Positions 56,047 through 64,000 of a DNA stretch of 64,000 bases are shown one piece after another; position 1 is the stretch's first letter; every line of letters starts with the position of its first letter. A model generated the notes under the pieces. That model was not told the DNA's origin. It did not search any database and saw nothing but the letters and a program-made list of their open reading frames with translations. The position numbers were made by a program, and so were the translations under genes. Source of the stretch: Stenomitos frigidus ULC18. GTDB lineage: Bacteria > Cyanobacteriota > Cyanobacteriia > Leptolyngbyales > Leptolyngbyaceae. Location of the stretch: NCBI RefSeq assembly GCF_003003795.1, contig NZ_PVWK01000159.1:1-64000 (forward strand), given 5' to 3'.

Positions 56047-56259
56047 TCAAGTTAGTTCGGTAGTTGCTCCAGCCGATGAGGCACTGCTGGAGCAACTACT
56101 GACGCTTCGCACCGTTCCTGCAGCAGAGAGCGTCACCACGATCGATTGTTGCGAGACTGCTTGGGCATTGTCGGAGGTGATGACTTCACTTCTGGCCTCT
56201 GCGATCGAGCGGCCATCGGCAGACACGATTCGTTGAAACAAAACCTTGTGCTGATTCAT
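56047..56259 (-). CDS. small Ser-rich-tailed protein
   Basis: The product has 70 residues. MNQHKVLFQRIVSADGRSIAEARSEVITS is a conserved-looking N-terminal half; the tail is Ser/Ala/Thr-rich (VSSCSSSASSAG). I know such proteins from cyanobacteria without a name. It overlaps the isomerase gene by 4 bases (ATGA at 56256-56259), so both are translated together. This points to a role in secretion or as cargo (inference). Confidence 0.65.
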   Translation of the reverse strand: MNQHKVLFQRIVSADGRSIAEARSEVITSDNAQAVSQQSIVVTLSAAGTVRSVSSCSSSASSAGATTELT

Positions 56260-57026
56260 AATCCAGTAGCCTCATCTTCAATAATCGAGGGGGGTTGATT
56301 GTGCAGAAAATGATTGAATTCGGCGTCCAGCCACTCCTTGAATAATTTCTGGAGAATCTCCTGATGAAGCTCAGGGGTCAACTCGGCAGAGAGAAATTCT
56401 TCAACCATCAACAGATGGTATCCCTGTTCTGTTTGAACCGGAGCAATGACTTTTTTAGGGTCAGCCCCAAAGACCAGTGCAGAGATATCTGGCTTCAGAC
56501 TCCAGCGATACAGTTCGCCCTCATAGCCACAGCCGTAGCGGCGTTTGGGGTCAACGTCATAGAGATGGGCGGCTTCGTAAAAACTAATCTCTTCTTCTTC
56601 AATTTCGTAAAAAATTTCTTGAGCAAGCTGCGCATAGGGAACAATGATTTGATAGACGAGTGCCCGCTCAAAATCCAGACGATTTTGAGCGAAGAAGCTT
56701 TCAACATTCTGGTTAAAGAGACATTCAGTCAGCTTTTGCAAGAGTAGCCGATCGCGAATGCCCGCTTCCCAGTCTTCCATTGTAACCAGTTGTTCCTCCA
56801 GCCATGCCAGAGTATCTGAAGCTTTTTGGAGGTGATATTCATGCCGCAAGCGATCGGCTTCCACTTGAATATCCTCAGGGGTAATGGTGATATTTCGGGC
56901 TTGAGCCGCCTCATCAACAATGTGCTGTCGAAGGATTTTGTGGCAGACATCCTTCAACAGTATTTCTTTTTTCAAAGAAAGTACTATCTCATCAATTTCA
57001 ATGACAATCCCTGATACATCAATCAT
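56256..57026 (-). CDS. PpiC/SurA-type peptidylprolyl isomerase
   Basis: ATG 57026 is preferred (a GTG at 57044 is open too), giving 256 residues. An N-terminal helical SurA-like region (CHKILRQHIVDEAAQARNITITPEDIQVEADRLRHEY, split by linkers) leads to a C-terminal rotamase domain (VYQIIVPYAQLAQEIFYEIEEEEISFYEAA, YGCGYEGELYRWSLKPDISALVFG, APVQTEQGYHLLMVEEFL). It has no signal peptide. Such cytoplasmic isomerases accompany HlyB/HlyD-type secretion genes in cyanobacteria. It is first in the pair with the Ser-rich gene. Confidence 0.85.
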   Translation of the reverse strand: MIDVSGIVIEIDEIVLSLKKEILLKDVCHKILRQHIVDEAAQARNITITPEDIQVEADRLRHEYHLQKASDTLAWLEEQLVTMEDWEAGIRDRLLLQKLTECLFNQNVESFFAQNRLDFERALVYQIIVPYAQLAQEIFYEIEEEEISFYEAAHLYDVDPKRRYGCGYEGELYRWSLKPDISALVFGADPKKVIAPVQTEQGYHLLMVEEFLSAELTPELHQEILQKLFKEWLDAEFNHFLHNQPPSIIEDEATGL

Positions 57027-57543: not shown

Positions 57544-57860
57544 CTTAGGATGAGTTACTAGTGGTAATGAAGCTGCAGCATAAATTTCTTTAGTGCTTTT
57601 AGTAAATGGGTATGGCTATCTTCTCTGGAGAAAAAAGGTAAGCCCTGATTAATTGTCGCCGTCACAAGCCTTGGCAGGGATACATCGTTTTCTACCGAAA
57701 AGGTGACATTTACTTCAGAGAATATCTCAGATCAGGGCGTTACAAACTGAACGAAACACCCCCTTCTTGTGCTTTAAATTTTTCAAGCTTCTGACACTCA
57801 ACCCAAATAACTGCGCACATTGCATTCTCGACATGCGCTTTGATATTAGGAGTTAATCGA

Positions 57861-59738
57861 ATGGATCTATTACAATTGCCTACCACTTCTGGAACGGGTT
57901 TCCCCACGGCTGATTCACTACTTCCTTCTCTTTATAACGCTAGTGTGACGGTTCTATCTCCTCTTCAAGCTGCAGGAGCATCGCTTACGACCGCCAGCAG
58001 TCAAGCTGTTGCGGTGATTGATGCTGGAGGGCAAGGTTCTGTCTATAGCAGTAACGCTGCCAGTATCGTGACAACGGCACAACCCTCGACGATCGCTAAC
58101 CACTCGATCGCCTTCATCAGCGCTGATGTTTTAGATTCTGATATTTTGTTAAAGGGGCTGCAGCCTGGTGTAGAAATTCATGTTCTTCAGTCATCAGAGC
58201 TAAGCCAGGCGATTCAGCAAATTACGGCAACGCTAACAGGGCGAAGTGGCCTTACCAGTCTACAGATCTTCTCCCATGGCAGTGACGGTAATCTTCAGCT
58301 TGGTAACGGTAATCTAAATGCAAGCAATTTAGCGACGTATAGCAGCGAGATTCACTCTTGGGCTAGCGCTCTAGTTCCAGGTTCAGACATTTTGTTGTAC
58401 GGCTGTGACGTGGCTGCCAGTAATAGTGGCAAAGCGTTTGTGCAACAAATCAGTCAGCTAACCGGGGCTGATGTAGCGGCTTCTATTGATCTCACGGGGA
58501 ACACAGTGTTAGGCGGTAACTGGACGCTGGAATTCCATACGGGAGCGATAGAAACCCCTGATCTCCTCCAACCCTGGGCACAGGCGGCATACAGTCACAT
58601 CCTAGCGACATTTACTGTAACAAATACAAGCGATAGTGGCACTGGTTCCTTGCGGCAAGCGATTCAAGATGCGAATGCGGCGGCTGGTGATGACATCATC
58701 GTATTTAGTGGCGGTTCGTTTGGCGATCAAACACCAGATACTATTACTCTAACCAGCGGGCAACTACAAATCGGCGGCAATCTTACCATTGCTGGAACCG
58801 GCGCTGGTTTATTAAGTATTAGTGGCAACAATGCCAGCCGAGTGTTTCAAATTGATCCAACGATCAACGCAACCATTGCAGACGTGACGATTACAAATGG
58901 TCGAGCGAATGATGGTGCAGGAGTTTTCAATAACGGTGGCTCTGTTGCACTACTCCGAACAACGTTCAATAATAATGTTGCCACAAATGTAGGCGGCGGT
59001 ATTCTCAATGCTGGCGGCTTATTGGTCAATGGCGGCACTTTCAACAGTAATCGGGCTGCAGCAGGGGCAGGGCTCTACAATGCGGGTGGTTTGGAGGTGC
59101 GAAACAGCAACTTCAATACCAACCAGGCCAGCCTGAATGGCGGCGGCATCTACAATAACTCAGGCGCATCCCTCACCGTAGACAATGATTACCTCTCAAG
59201 AAATACTGCAGGAAACGATGGTGGTGGTATCTATAACAGAAGTGGTAGTACGTTAAGCCTGCTAACTAGTGTGATTGTGGATGGTACGGCGGGTCGCTTA
59301 GGCGGTGGTATTGCTAATTTTGGCACCATTACATCCATAGACAATTCTCTGATTCGAGGTAATCGTTCCACAGGCGGGAGTGGTGCGGCGGGTGGTGTTT
59401 TTAATGGCGGCACTGCCAACATCACAAACACCAGCATCCTCGGCAACACGGCTGCAGGGCCGGGTGGTGGTCTTTACAATAATGCTGGAGCGACCCTGAC
59501 CCTGAGAGCGAACAGTCTTGTCTCTGGCAACCGGGGAGCTAGAGGTGGCGGTATCTATAATGAAGGTTCTGCTACGGTTGGGGAAAGCAGCATTATTTCA
59601 AACCGCACGAATGCCCTCAACGGTGTTGGTCCTGATGTTTCTGGAGCCTTCATCAGCGAAGGCTTTAACACCATCTATAGCGCCTCCGGGAGTACTGGCT
59701 TTAGTCCCACACTCGGAGACACCATTATCTTTGGTTGA
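57861..59738 (+). CDS. DUF4347 protein with right-handed beta-helix repeats
   Basis: ATG 57861 (MDLLQLP) has TAGGAG 9 nt upstream, preferred to a start at 57840. The protein then has 625 residues. No signal peptide is present, as is usual for type I secretion cargo. DUF4347 (about 80-235): HVLQSSELSQAIQQI, LQIFSHGSDGNLQLGNG, ILLYGCDVA. Then about 240-620: beta-helix repeats of the GGGIYN/GAGLYNAGG type with FTVTNTSDSGTGSLRQAIQDAN at their start. It ends near a shared terminator at 59790. Confidence 0.88.
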   Translation: MDLLQLPTTSGTGFPTADSLLPSLYNASVTVLSPLQAAGASLTTASSQAVAVIDAGGQGSVYSSNAASIVTTAQPSTIANHSIAFISADVLDSDILLKGLQPGVEIHVLQSSELSQAIQQITATLTGRSGLTSLQIFSHGSDGNLQLGNGNLNASNLATYSSEIHSWASALVPGSDILLYGCDVAASNSGKAFVQQISQLTGADVAASIDLTGNTVLGGNWTLEFHTGAIETPDLLQPWAQAAYSHILATFTVTNTSDSGTGSLRQAIQDANAAAGDDIIVFSGGSFGDQTPDTITLTSGQLQIGGNLTIAGTGAGLLSISGNNASRVFQIDPTINATIADVTITNGRANDGAGVFNNGGSVALLRTTFNNNVATNVGGGILNAGGLLVNGGTFNSNRAAAGAGLYNAGGLEVRNSNFNTNQASLNGGGIYNNSGASLTVDNDYLSRNTAGNDGGGIYNRSGSTLSLLTSVIVDGTAGRLGGGIANFGTITSIDNSLIRGNRSTGGSGAAGGVFNGGTANITNTSILGNTAAGPGGGLYNNAGATLTLRANSLVSGNRGARGGGIYNEGSATVGESSIISNRTNALNGVGPDVSGAFISEGFNTIYSASGSTGFSPTLGDTIIFG

Positions 59739-59860: not shown

Positions 59861-60250
59861 TTACCAAGTTCGATAGGTGGAGTACGTAACAGATGAGTTG
59901 ATGGTAGTTGAGTTGCCATTAAAGCTGGTGTTATTTGAAGAGCCATAGAAGCCTACACCTGCGTAAGCGTAAGGGCTAATGCCAAGGGCTCTGCCAGATG
60001 CAGTGGCATTAGACGTGGTGTAGTAAGGGTATAGGGAGGTTGTTGCCAACGTATTGGTCGTGCCAAACGTTTGCTGCCCAGAGGCCGAAGCAAGGACACC
60101 AGCAGCGGCATAACCAGTCCCGGCAGTGGTATAACCGGTCACGAAGGCGCTGGCAGCAGCCCCTGTGATGAAGCATTCTTCTGGTAATGCTTCACCATAT
60201 TCTGAGGACTCAGTCGTCGCTTCTAAATAATCTAGATCAGTGATTAGCAT
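59861..60250 (-). CDS. small secreted-type protein with DLDYLE leader box (3)
   Basis: The protein has 129 residues. It begins MLITDLDYLEATTESSEYGE. The leader has a possible Gly-Ala processing point (EECFITGAAAS, residues about 25-35). The rest is Gly/Ala/Ser/Thr/Tyr/Asn-rich with repeated TTS/GY-type words and no Lys after the leader. RBS GGAGCGAC precedes ATG. The operator at 60332-60348 lies about 90 bp upstream. The function is unknown. It is likely cargo of the nearby HlyD export system (inference). Confidence 0.75.
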   Translation of the reverse strand: MLITDLDYLEATTESSEYGEALPEECFITGAAASAFVTGYTTAGTGYAAAGVLASASGQQTFGTTNTLATTSLYPYYTTSNATASGRALGISPYAYAGVGFYGSSNNTSFNGNSTTINSSVTYSTYRTW

Positions 60251-60508: not shown

Positions 60509-60808
60509 TTAGTGGAAGACAGAGTTAATGACAGCAACAGATGTGCTAGCCGAGAAAGAGCCACCACCAAAGTCAGCTACAGCAAGGGTGTCAGCTTTGG
60601 TGAAGGAGTAGGTGGGGTAGTAGGTGTAGTTGTTGGCAACACCCTTAGCACCAGCAGCAGCGCTGTTGCTATAGGTCTTGGGGCTATTGACGCTGGTGTA
60701 GAAGCTGTTGTTGGTGTTGAAGTTAATCGAAACCGTGTCAGTTTCGTTGAACCCACCTTCAATGCTAGCATCAACAATTTCAAGATAATTCAGGTCAGAA
60801 ATAATCAT
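60509..60808 (-). CDS. small secreted-type protein with DLNYLE leader and GG site (2)
   Basis: From ATG 60808 (MIISDLNYLEIVDASIEGG; RBS ACGGAGAAA) the product has 99 residues. The leader ends in a Gly-Gly pair (residues 18-19) of the kind cut by C39-type peptidase exporters. The mature part is Asn/Ser/Thr/Tyr/Phe-rich (DTVSINFNTNN, YTYYPTYSFTKADTLAVADFGGG). A start six codons upstream is less likely. Own terminator at 60406 and operator at 60894. Confidence 0.75.
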   Translation of the reverse strand: MIISDLNYLEIVDASIEGGFNETDTVSINFNTNNSFYTSVNSPKTYSNSAAAGAKGVANNYTYYPTYSFTKADTLAVADFGGGSFSASTSVAVINSVFH

Positions 60809-61287: not shown

Positions 61288-61623
61288 TCAGCTACTCAAG
61301 ACTGACGATGATGAACTGAGAAAGACAGAAACCTGATCACCGCCCTGTATGCCCTGGCCTGCAAACGAAGTGAATGAGGTTTTAATTCTACCATCAGGAC
61401 TTTGGGCACTATTTGAAGTAATTGTCCCCGGAAGATTCTGAACTGAGACAGTAAACGGTAGTGCAACTGGGAATGAAGCACGATAAATTTCCTGCTCGTA
61501 ATTTCTAATCGACAAGATGCGATTAGCCAGGTCGATCGAAAAAACGCCAAAGGAACTCTCTCGACCTTTTAAGGTGTGTAGTTTATCGAGGGTTTCTAGA
61601 TGTTCTAAGTTACGAAGTAACAT
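61288..61623 (-). CDS. small protein with NLEHLE leader box (1)
   Basis: The protein has 111 residues. It starts MLLRNLEHLETLDKLHTLKGRESSFGVFSIDL, a divergent version of the DLNYLE box. The middle looks like a beta domain (RNYEQEIYRASFPVALPFTV), and the tail is Ser-rich (VSVFLSSSSSVLSS). RBS GTGGAGAGC precedes ATG. The operator lies about 60 bp upstream. No Gly-Gly pair is seen in the leader, so it may be only distantly related to the other two. Confidence 0.65.
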   Translation of the reverse strand: MLLRNLEHLETLDKLHTLKGRESSFGVFSIDLANRILSIRNYEQEIYRASFPVALPFTVSVQNLPGTITSNSAQSPDGRIKTSFTSFAGQGIQGGDQVSVFLSSSSSVLSS

Positions 61624-61810: not shown

Positions 61811-62278
61811 TTACCATTCACGTGGCAATACATTGATCTGCTCTTGATAACCCTTCAAAGAAACTTTGAAGGGCAAGTGCCCACCCAGCTTATAATCTAA
61901 CCATTGTGTCAAGCCACCTAGTCCCCCCGCTCGCATTTGTCCGGCTTGGCTACCAATAGCTTCGACATAATTCAAATCGTTAATCTTGCTTGCGCTTTGT
62001 TGAGGCAATAAGCGATTTGCATGGATGACTGGGCTATTGGCATCTGTGCTCATACCGACTTGTTTAGAGCGATGCCTGGTCTGGCAGTTATCTTTAGTCA
62101 ACCGATTGTAGGTGCGGTAGGGAATGTAATGGAGGGGGTTATAGCCAGCAAACCGTAGGATGAGCACACATGCCCAGGAATACTTTCCTTCCAGTATGGC
62201 TTCTACGATTTGATTAAATTGTTCGGGTGTCATGACCCTGTCTAGCTTTGGGTTTGAGAAAGGGATTTGCTGATTCAT
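61811..62278 (-). CDS. HetP-family protein with DLNYVE box in its tail
   Basis: From ATG 62278 ([20 protein letters not shown]) the protein has 155 residues; an upstream start at 62341 adds 21 residues. The HetP core at about 15-65 is clear: [42 protein letters not shown]. HetP-like proteins affect heterocyst commitment in Nostoc, but relatives exist elsewhere. The tail contains [22 protein letters not shown], the box seen in the neighbouring small proteins, with a Gly pair 12 residues on. It is located between HlyD and the small genes. Confidence 0.85.
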
Positions 62279-62460: not shown

Positions 62461-64000
62461 CTACAAGTTGATGCCGCCTTTTTGTAGCTTGCGGATAGGG
62501 TCCAGAAGGATGTCGATGATATGCCGATCGCGAATGACGATTTCGGCGGTCGCGGTTTGCCCAGGCTTGAACTTAATCATTTGCTGTGGGGTGCTGACGT
62601 AGTCCCGATCCAGAGCGACTTCAATACGGTATACCTCCCCTAGATTCTTGTCGGACTTTGAATCGGGGGAGGTTGAAACCACCCGACCAGAAATAATGCC
62701 GTAGTCTTGGTAGGGATAGGCATCAACTTTCACTTGCACAGACATGCCTGGTTTCACAAAACCAGCTTCCTGGTTCGGTAGGCTTGCTTGCAGAACCAGA
62801 GGAGCATGCTGCGGCCCAATCTCTGCAATGGTTTGACCGATCTGCACGACTTCGCCAGTACGTTTGATATTCAGGGATGAGACAATGCCATCGACTGGAG
62901 CATAGAAGGAATATTGCTTGAGCCTAGATTGGGCACTACTTAAAGATGTCTGAGTATCAGCAATTTTGGTGTTCAGATCGGTGATTTGAGCTTCTAGCTC
63001 GTGGCCTTGCTGTTGGCTTGCGAGTTGATCCTTACGCCCTTCAGCGTGTTTTTGCGTGAGTCCTGCTTGAAGTCGTTCTGCTTCAGCAAGGTTCTGCTGG
63101 AGATCGCCACGGCTTTTGATGGTGGTGCTTTGGCGATCGCGCAGGCTTTGCTCCACTTCAAACAATTGCTCCCTAGAGATTGCTCCTGCTGTCACCATGG
63201 GACCGAAACGCTGTAGGCGTTCTTGATACTCAACAATATCCTGTTGATATTGCGTGACTAGCTCGGAAGCAGTCTTCGCGTTTGCGTTTGCTTGGGCGAT
63301 CGAGACCTCCTGCGCCTGAATGTTGGCGGCGGCAATAGCAGCACGAGTCTTTGCTTCCAGGCGAATTTTTTCAAGCAGAGTCTGCTTTTGGGATACTTCT
63401 ACTCGATATCCTGCCAGTACTTGCTCTAGACGTTCTACATCATTGGCAGCAATTTGACCGTCCAGAGCAACCAATAGCTGTCCAGCTTTGACGTTCTGCC
63501 CTTCATTGACAGCTAGCTGCGTGACTTTGCCTTCTATAAGGGGGTTAATTTTATAGGCTTCGCCCTGGGGTACCAATTTCCCGCGCGCGTGCCCCACTTC
63601 GTTCATTTGCCCCAACCAGGCCCAAGCGCCAAAGGCCAGACAGAACACCACTCCCCCTAGAATGAAGCGCTGAGGAAGAGATGAAGGCGGCTGATCCAAC
63701 ACCGTTTGGAGAGTGGAAGACCAGTTTACGGGAGGAGTCGTCGCTACAGTTGAATGAACGGCTGAAGGAACCGCAGGAGGATGTTGTGTTTCAACACTAG
63801 TGTTTTCTGATACTGAATTGGGGGCATTGGCTGTGCCACCATAAATCCGAGCTCCAATTGATGAATCAAGTGTTTCAAGGAATGGTTTATCTGGAGAGAG
63901 CCTGTTCTGGTTAACAACTGGCTGTAAATCATTAAGGGAGAATGGTAAGGAATGGCTCTGCTGATTTACTGAATTTAAGTGACCTTTGGGAGTAGAACGA
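62461..64000 (-). CDS. HlyD-family type I secretion adaptor, 5' end outside window
   Basis: Periplasmic adaptor that links an ABC exporter to TolC. The recognised part has RFILGGVVFCLAFGAWAWLG (membrane helix), the first lipoyl half (IEGKVTQLAVNEGQNVKAGQLLVALD), a coiled coil of about 150 residues, the second half (YSFYAPVDGIVSSLNIKRTGEVVQIGQTI), and the C-terminal barrel. The frame stays open from 63702 to the window end with no ATG, reading a Pro/Ser/Thr-rich cytoplasmic extension (LNDLQPVVNQNRLSPDKPFLETLDS), so the gene is incomplete here. The ABC transporter probably lies further upstream. Confidence 0.9.
   Translation of the reverse strand, partial: RSTPKGHLNSVNQQSHSLPFSLNDLQPVVNQNRLSPDKPFLETLDSSIGARIYGGTANAPNSVSENTSVETQHPPAVPSAVHSTVATTPPVNWSSTLQTVLDQPPSSLPQRFILGGVVFCLAFGAWAWLGQMNEVGHARGKLVPQGEAYKINPLIEGKVTQLAVNEGQNVKAGQLLVALDGQIAANDVERLEQVLAGYRVEVSQKQTLLEKIRLEAKTRAAIAAANIQAQEVSIAQANANAKTASELVTQYQQDIVEYQERLQRFGPMVTAGAISREQLFEVEQSLRDRQSTTIKSRGDLQQNLAEAERLQAGLTQKHAEGRKDQLASQQQGHELEAQITDLNTKIADTQTSLSSAQSRLKQYSFYAPVDGIVSSLNIKRTGEVVQIGQTIAEIGPQHAPLVLQASLPNQEAGFVKPGMSVQVKVDAYPYQDYGIISGRVVSTSPDSKSDKNLGEVYRIEVALDRDYVSTPQQMIKFKPGQTATAEIVIRDRHIIDILLDPIRKLQKGGINL

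Follow-up and report, generated by a model that had tools for sequence, protein, structure and literature searches.

The window, a stretch of 64,000 nucleotides from Stenomitos frigidus ULC18 (contig NZ_PVWK01000159.1, positions 1 to 64,000), codes close to its end for a member of the HetP family, which controls the formation of nitrogen-fixing cells (heterocysts). The gene stands in a row read on one strand in the order HetC-HlyD-HetP-cargo, with small leader-bearing proteins downstream of HetP, an HlyD gene running past the end of the window and a HetC-type exporter lying beyond it on the same contig (Table 1). The product is matched by the NCBIfam model NF037966 (HetP_family) over residues 3-64 with an E-value of 4.6e-35 and a score above the model's cutoff, and in the ORF listing a GTG-started form extends to 62341. 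AlphaFold2 predicts with confidence only a small helical bundle for this core, with helices at residues 18-29, 33-43, 48-51 and 54-70, the tail being modelled at low confidence (mean pLDDT for the protein 64.5), and a Foldseek search of the PDB with the core fold returned no match at E <= 0.001. None of six other genomes of the genus yields a HetP match; therefore the gene appears patchy in the genus.

Table 1. Features of the HetP locus; positions are those of the window unless the contig is named
Feature	Position	Strand	Basis and remarks
HetP-family protein	61811..62278	-	155 aa + stop, ATG start; NF037966, 119 bits (cutoff 45)
HetP core, residues 3-64	62087..62272	-	NF037966 match and predicted helical bundle
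Leader box of the tail, residues 99-108	61955..61984	-	leader profile, 16.5 bits; family conservation
Double-glycine site(s), residues 117-118 and 120-121 (AGG-LGG); putative cleavage position	61916..61930	-	G117/G118 at least 90% conserved
C-terminal peptide after the first GG, 37 aa (34 aa from the second GG); putative released cargo	61814..61924	-	sequence
HlyD-type membrane fusion protein	62461..64000, continuing past the window to contig 64053	-	TIGR01843, 230 bits; full ORF in L004
HetC-type exporter, cNMP-C39-ABC, 1083 aa	contig 64420-67671, beyond the window	same strand	domain search
Small protein, N-terminal leader MIISDLNYLEIVDASIEGG	60509..60808	-	ORF listing and leader profile
Small protein, N-terminal leader MLITDLDYLEATTESSE, Gly-Ala further on	59861..60250	-	ORF listing
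Small protein, degenerate leader MLLRNLEHLETLDKLHTLKGRES, GR replacing GG	61288..61623	-	ORF listing; possibly decaying cargo

The tail of the protein reads KINDLNYVE, with V replacing L before the E, followed by 10 residues and GG (residues 98-118). In family, in motif (KIXDLXYLEX10GG) and in its setting beside a long-type C39 cluster it is thus of a kind with the HetP-type GG precursors described by Wang, Fewer & Sivonen (2011; PMC3140520). The leader segment and the GG match those of cognate substrates of C39 exporters; because the segment (residues 99-118) comes after a folded core and is not the N-terminal leader of a small protein, we file HetP as a leader-like rather than a classical member of this class. 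Two further genes lie on the far side of the small proteins. An ORF on the opposite strand adjoining the cargo genes (57840-59738, +) codes for a protein with a DUF4347 domain (185 bits) at its N-terminus and glycine-rich repeats after it, and another (56256-57026, -) for a PpiC-type rotamase related to the TIGR04500 peptide maturation proteins, rotamases of this kind having been reported in long-type exporter clusters.

The leader box of HetP tails and the HetC-clade exporter

Fifty-five N-terminal leaders of small ORFs, none of them from HetP, served to build a profile. At 4 bits or more it matched 95 of 157 unique HetP tails as against 3 of 3140 shuffled ones, and at 8 bits or more 61 of 157 as against none of 3140. 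Across 81,915 ORFs (2.8 Mb), the 151 matches of at least 10 bits comprised 113 start-proximal ones in small ORFs, 34 in HetP tails and 4 that were neither. The occurrence of the leader box in HetP tails is not due to chance. The initial annotation had described a HetP core with, in its tail, a Gly pair and the very box that opens the neighbouring small proteins; the family model and the profile confirm both parts of this description. In a 44-row alignment, whose rows were picked mainly among tail-bearing HetP, residues D101, L102, Y104, E106, G117 and G118 are conserved in at least 90% of the rows, comparable to much of the core. The peptide after the GG is not conserved outside Nostocales. 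A conserved W had been considered as its signature and takes the form QWL in Nostocales, but it was dropped since elsewhere 21 cases were observed where shuffled peptides give 18.2 on average.

The exporter next to the window's HetP combines cNMP, C39, ABC membrane and ABC ATPase domains, the architecture expected of a HetC-clade PCAT. In a quick tree, computed without a mixture model from 75 long-type exporters, it falls within a starred clade of 28 rows that includes the HetC of Nostocales; a second type of cNMP-C39 exporter forms a separate group, with a long branch flagged among its members. In most HetP loci outside Nostocales HetC, HlyD and HetP follow one another on one strand. The initial annotation had named two outcomes that would speak against it, namely absence of the box from other HetP tails and its equally frequent occurrence in HetP genes far from secretion genes, and neither was found: where HetP has a HetC-type exporter no more than 6 kb away, 80 of 94 genes carry the box, versus 26 of 62 where it has none (Fisher P 2e-8, uncorrected for kinship). 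The rule used to call the tail box was broadened stepwise as the sequence set grew, and these counts, like those for heterocyst-type genomes given below, each come from a later version of it. Many of the 26 box-bearing HetP that lack a nearby exporter are orthologs in which the GG eroded after the loss of HetC. Since the box tracks the exporter and many of the exceptions have this explanation, the suggestion that the exporter processes or binds the tail is well supported by the comparison of sequences.

The tail is absent in some HetP that lie beside both HetC and HlyD (L029, L074, L086, L088, L098 and L154), and the short HetP paralogs of heterocyst formers are mostly without it. Some heterocyst formers carry a second HetC-HetP pair (L181 in genome G381, and L086/L088 in Calothrix), the second HetP of Calothrix having no tail box. 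In Fischerella and its relatives, short and weakly matching HlyD-like ORFs (915-1305 nt, 108-197 bits) are seen between HetC and HetP (L054, L061, L065, L070, L075 and L078), which are perhaps decayed membrane fusion proteins. Among 21 HetC loci of Nostocales a single one has another leader-bearing small ORF within about 8 kb, versus 36 of 57 elsewhere, so that in Nostocales HetP is nearly the sole leader carrier near hetC.

The window's locus resembles hetC-hetP of Nostoc PCC 7120 (alr2817-alr2818) in its HetP core and its adjacent HetC-clade exporter (cNMP, C39, ABC), a likeness that covers core and exporter. In the window the pair is still accompanied by HlyD and by several small proteins with leaders, whereas PCC 7120 reportedly lacks a membrane fusion protein near hetC. 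It had been suggested that the locus would give HetP relatives a function outside heterocyst formation, a suggestion that holds only in part. Most box-bearing HetP outside heterocyst formers do lie beside HetC/HlyD; however, because the exporter is a relative of HetC, the locus appears to preserve the ancestral context of hetC and hetP and not to form a system of its own.

Loss of the double glycine and of HetC in heterocyst-type genomes

In a family of 205 genomes that includes heterocyst formers (that of genome G094), HetC orthologs (threshold E <= 1e-260) were found in 85 and were absent genome-wide from 120, while HetP was present in 203. The absence of HetC in Nodularia spumigena CCY9414 (G329) is consistent with the published genome. 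HetC remnants are sometimes seen beside hetP in the HetC-less genomes (e.g. L233, L234). In PCC 7120, by comparison, heterocysts cannot form without HetC. Tails were read in 133 genomes, hand-picked from the search output over many genera with and without HetC, and GG or GA is retained in 59 of the 65 that have HetC versus 14 of the 68 that lack it. In the HetC-less tails the GG is replaced by RGS, RNS, RAN, RAG or RSG, or the tail is truncated by stop codons. There is an exception in genus g99, where HetC is intact yet RGRG stands at the GG position.

As related genomes are not independent, the GG losses were mapped on a tree of HetP DNA built without the tail box. Nine of 10 losses fall on HetC-less branches as against 3.8 expected (P 0.0005, the same under either of two rootings), with HetC genes containing internal stops and genome G438, whose HetC lies elsewhere, excluded, exclusions that were chosen after the tails had been seen; with all genomes retained it is 8 of 11 (P 0.0075). 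Very large clades were barred in this branch-placement test, which was run once under three settings, all of them given here. A stricter test on independent pairs points in the same direction without reaching significance, with about 4 pairs for, 0 against and 6 tied under the exclusions (median P 0.125) and 3.3 for, 0.5 against and 7.2 tied with all genomes (median P 0.375), its power being low with so few pairs.

Selection on the ten-residue box differs likewise between the two sets of genomes. With genera weighted and resampled for the intervals, and doubtful HetC genes left out, its dN/dS is 0.055 (0.021-0.087) with HetC and 0.154 (0.085-0.190) without, as compared with 0.105 and 0.122, respectively, for the HetP core; an earlier estimate from pooled within-genus pairs gave 0.05 versus 0.20 for the box and 0.11 versus 0.11 for the core. 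Thus, where HetC is present the box is held more tightly by selection than the core, and by these sequence comparisons selection on it is relaxed where HetC is absent, with hardly any change in the core. The stretch after the box also differs, having a median of 47 residues with HetC and 19 without. The box nevertheless outlasts the GG in many HetC-less genomes at a dN/dS well below 1, indicating that it either is slow to decay or does something for which HetC is not needed.

HetP as a candidate substrate of HetC

The motif in the HetP tail is already in the literature. As a 'putative cleavage motif KIXDLXYLEX10GG' it was described by Wang, Fewer & Sivonen (2011) for HetP encoded next to bacteriocin clusters, and PMC4558948 repeats the description for Subsection V strains. 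HetC, in turn, has been shown by Rachedi et al. (2024; PMC10986499) to be an active C39 peptidase-type exporter; heterocyst formation requires it, and differentiation depends on its catalytic residues. According to that paper its substrate is not known and no leader-bearing gene had been found near hetC, and the authors raised the question of whether peptides derived from HetP are exported. The searched passages of PMC10986499, PMC4133259, PMC3140520 and PMC4558948 do not join the literature on the HetP motif with that on the HetC substrate, and HetC has no occurrence in the searched main text of PMC3140520. What the present comparison adds is the link to the HetC clade, the loss of the motif together with HetC and the tests of selection.

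In light of the conservation of box and GG, the linkage to the HetC clade, the loss of GG on HetC-less branches and the relaxed selection on the box, we propose, as a reading that we consider somewhat probable, that the HetP tail is a site of recognition and cleavage by HetC and that the resulting peptide is exported. The C39 peptidase domain of the HetC-type exporter would recognize the DLxYLE segment of HetP as it would in the small leader proteins and would cut HetP after the GG; this would separate the core, which would stay inside the cell, from the C-terminal peptide, which would be handed to the exporter, together with HlyD where the latter is present. If the tail is indeed recognized and cut by HetC, HetP becomes the leading candidate for the HetC substrate in heterocyst formers. 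More tentatively, and as a proposal that we regard as rather doubtful in its full form, HetC might cut HetP after the GG while the cell commits to becoming a heterocyst, the core being freed to act in that cell and the peptide exported as a signal to neighbours, with the pair inherited from an exporter-cargo cluster such as that of the window. The published bypass of a hetC peptidase mutant by over-expression of hetP (PMC4133259) fits a shared pathway. The localisation of a C-terminal HetP-GFP fusion, alike in the wild type and the HetC peptidase mutant (PMC4133259), does not argue for cutting by HetC.

Part of this evidence could also be accounted for if the tail were a docking or decoy element that binds the HetC peptidase domain in the manner of a leader but stays uncut, and whose role is to tether HetP or to gate the exporter. 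The box being more constrained than the core where HetC is present and outlasting the GG where it is not, the poor conservation of the post-GG peptide outside Nostocales and the location of both HetC and HetP fusions near the heterocyst poles (PMC4133259) are all in keeping with this. However, the GG, which docking alone would not need, is conserved and lost mainly where HetC is gone, and the dependence of differentiation on the catalytic residues of HetC (PMC10986499) also speaks against it; we therefore consider docking alone unlikely, if worth bearing in mind. According to a proposal of 2011 (PMC3140520), HetP could instead be the precursor of a bacteriocin, with an M16 peptidase as its possible processing enzyme; the core would then be no more than a large leader, and the toxin or natural product would be the C-terminal peptide. 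In its favour are the motif, reported for HetP next to group II bacteriocin clusters (PMC3140520; repeated in PMC4558948), and the small leader-bearing proteins that adjoin HetP outside Nostocales. As no peptide equals the HetP core in conservation, as heterocyst development depends on the core (PMC4133259), as the loss of GG follows HetC, and as an unsystematic look noticed no M16 peptidase near the window's cluster, we hold this to be very improbable. The persistence of the box at a dN/dS of about 0.15 without HetC, along with the report that HetP homologs act via protein contacts (PMC9045159), could alternatively mean that the tail has another role, for instance in contacts with HetR or HetP paralogs, and declines only indirectly with HetC, in lineages with rewired heterocyst control that lost both. 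This is the least probable of all in our estimate, as the tail matches exporter leaders and the box-bearing HetP outside heterocyst formers lie mostly beside HetC/HlyD.

Under recognition and cleavage by HetC, the candidate substrate adjoins hetC itself, with its signal in the HetP tail and not at the start of a protein, and the comparisons suggest that HetP may be the long-sought client of the exporter. If HetC does cut HetP, the origin of a developmental switch would lie in a cluster for peptide export, and a long-open question about the pair would be reducible to a one-tube assay.

Similar arrangements are known in which a protein domain precedes the GG cleavage site for a C39 exporter, namely in the NHLP and Nif11-type (N11P) precursors. 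Unlike in these, the domain in HetP comes from a family that is unrelated to theirs, highly conserved and involved in development, and the leader segment is DLxYLE as in the short-leader proteins; no nitrile hydratase-like or Nif11-like leader model is among its NCBIfam or Pfam matches. In Synechococcus elongatus the EbfG proteins also bear GG leaders and are secreted by a cyanobacterial C39 exporter, PteB (PMC4997328), which HetC resembles according to the same authors; the EbfG leaders, unlike the box of HetP, are N-terminal and belong to short secreted proteins without a regulatory domain.
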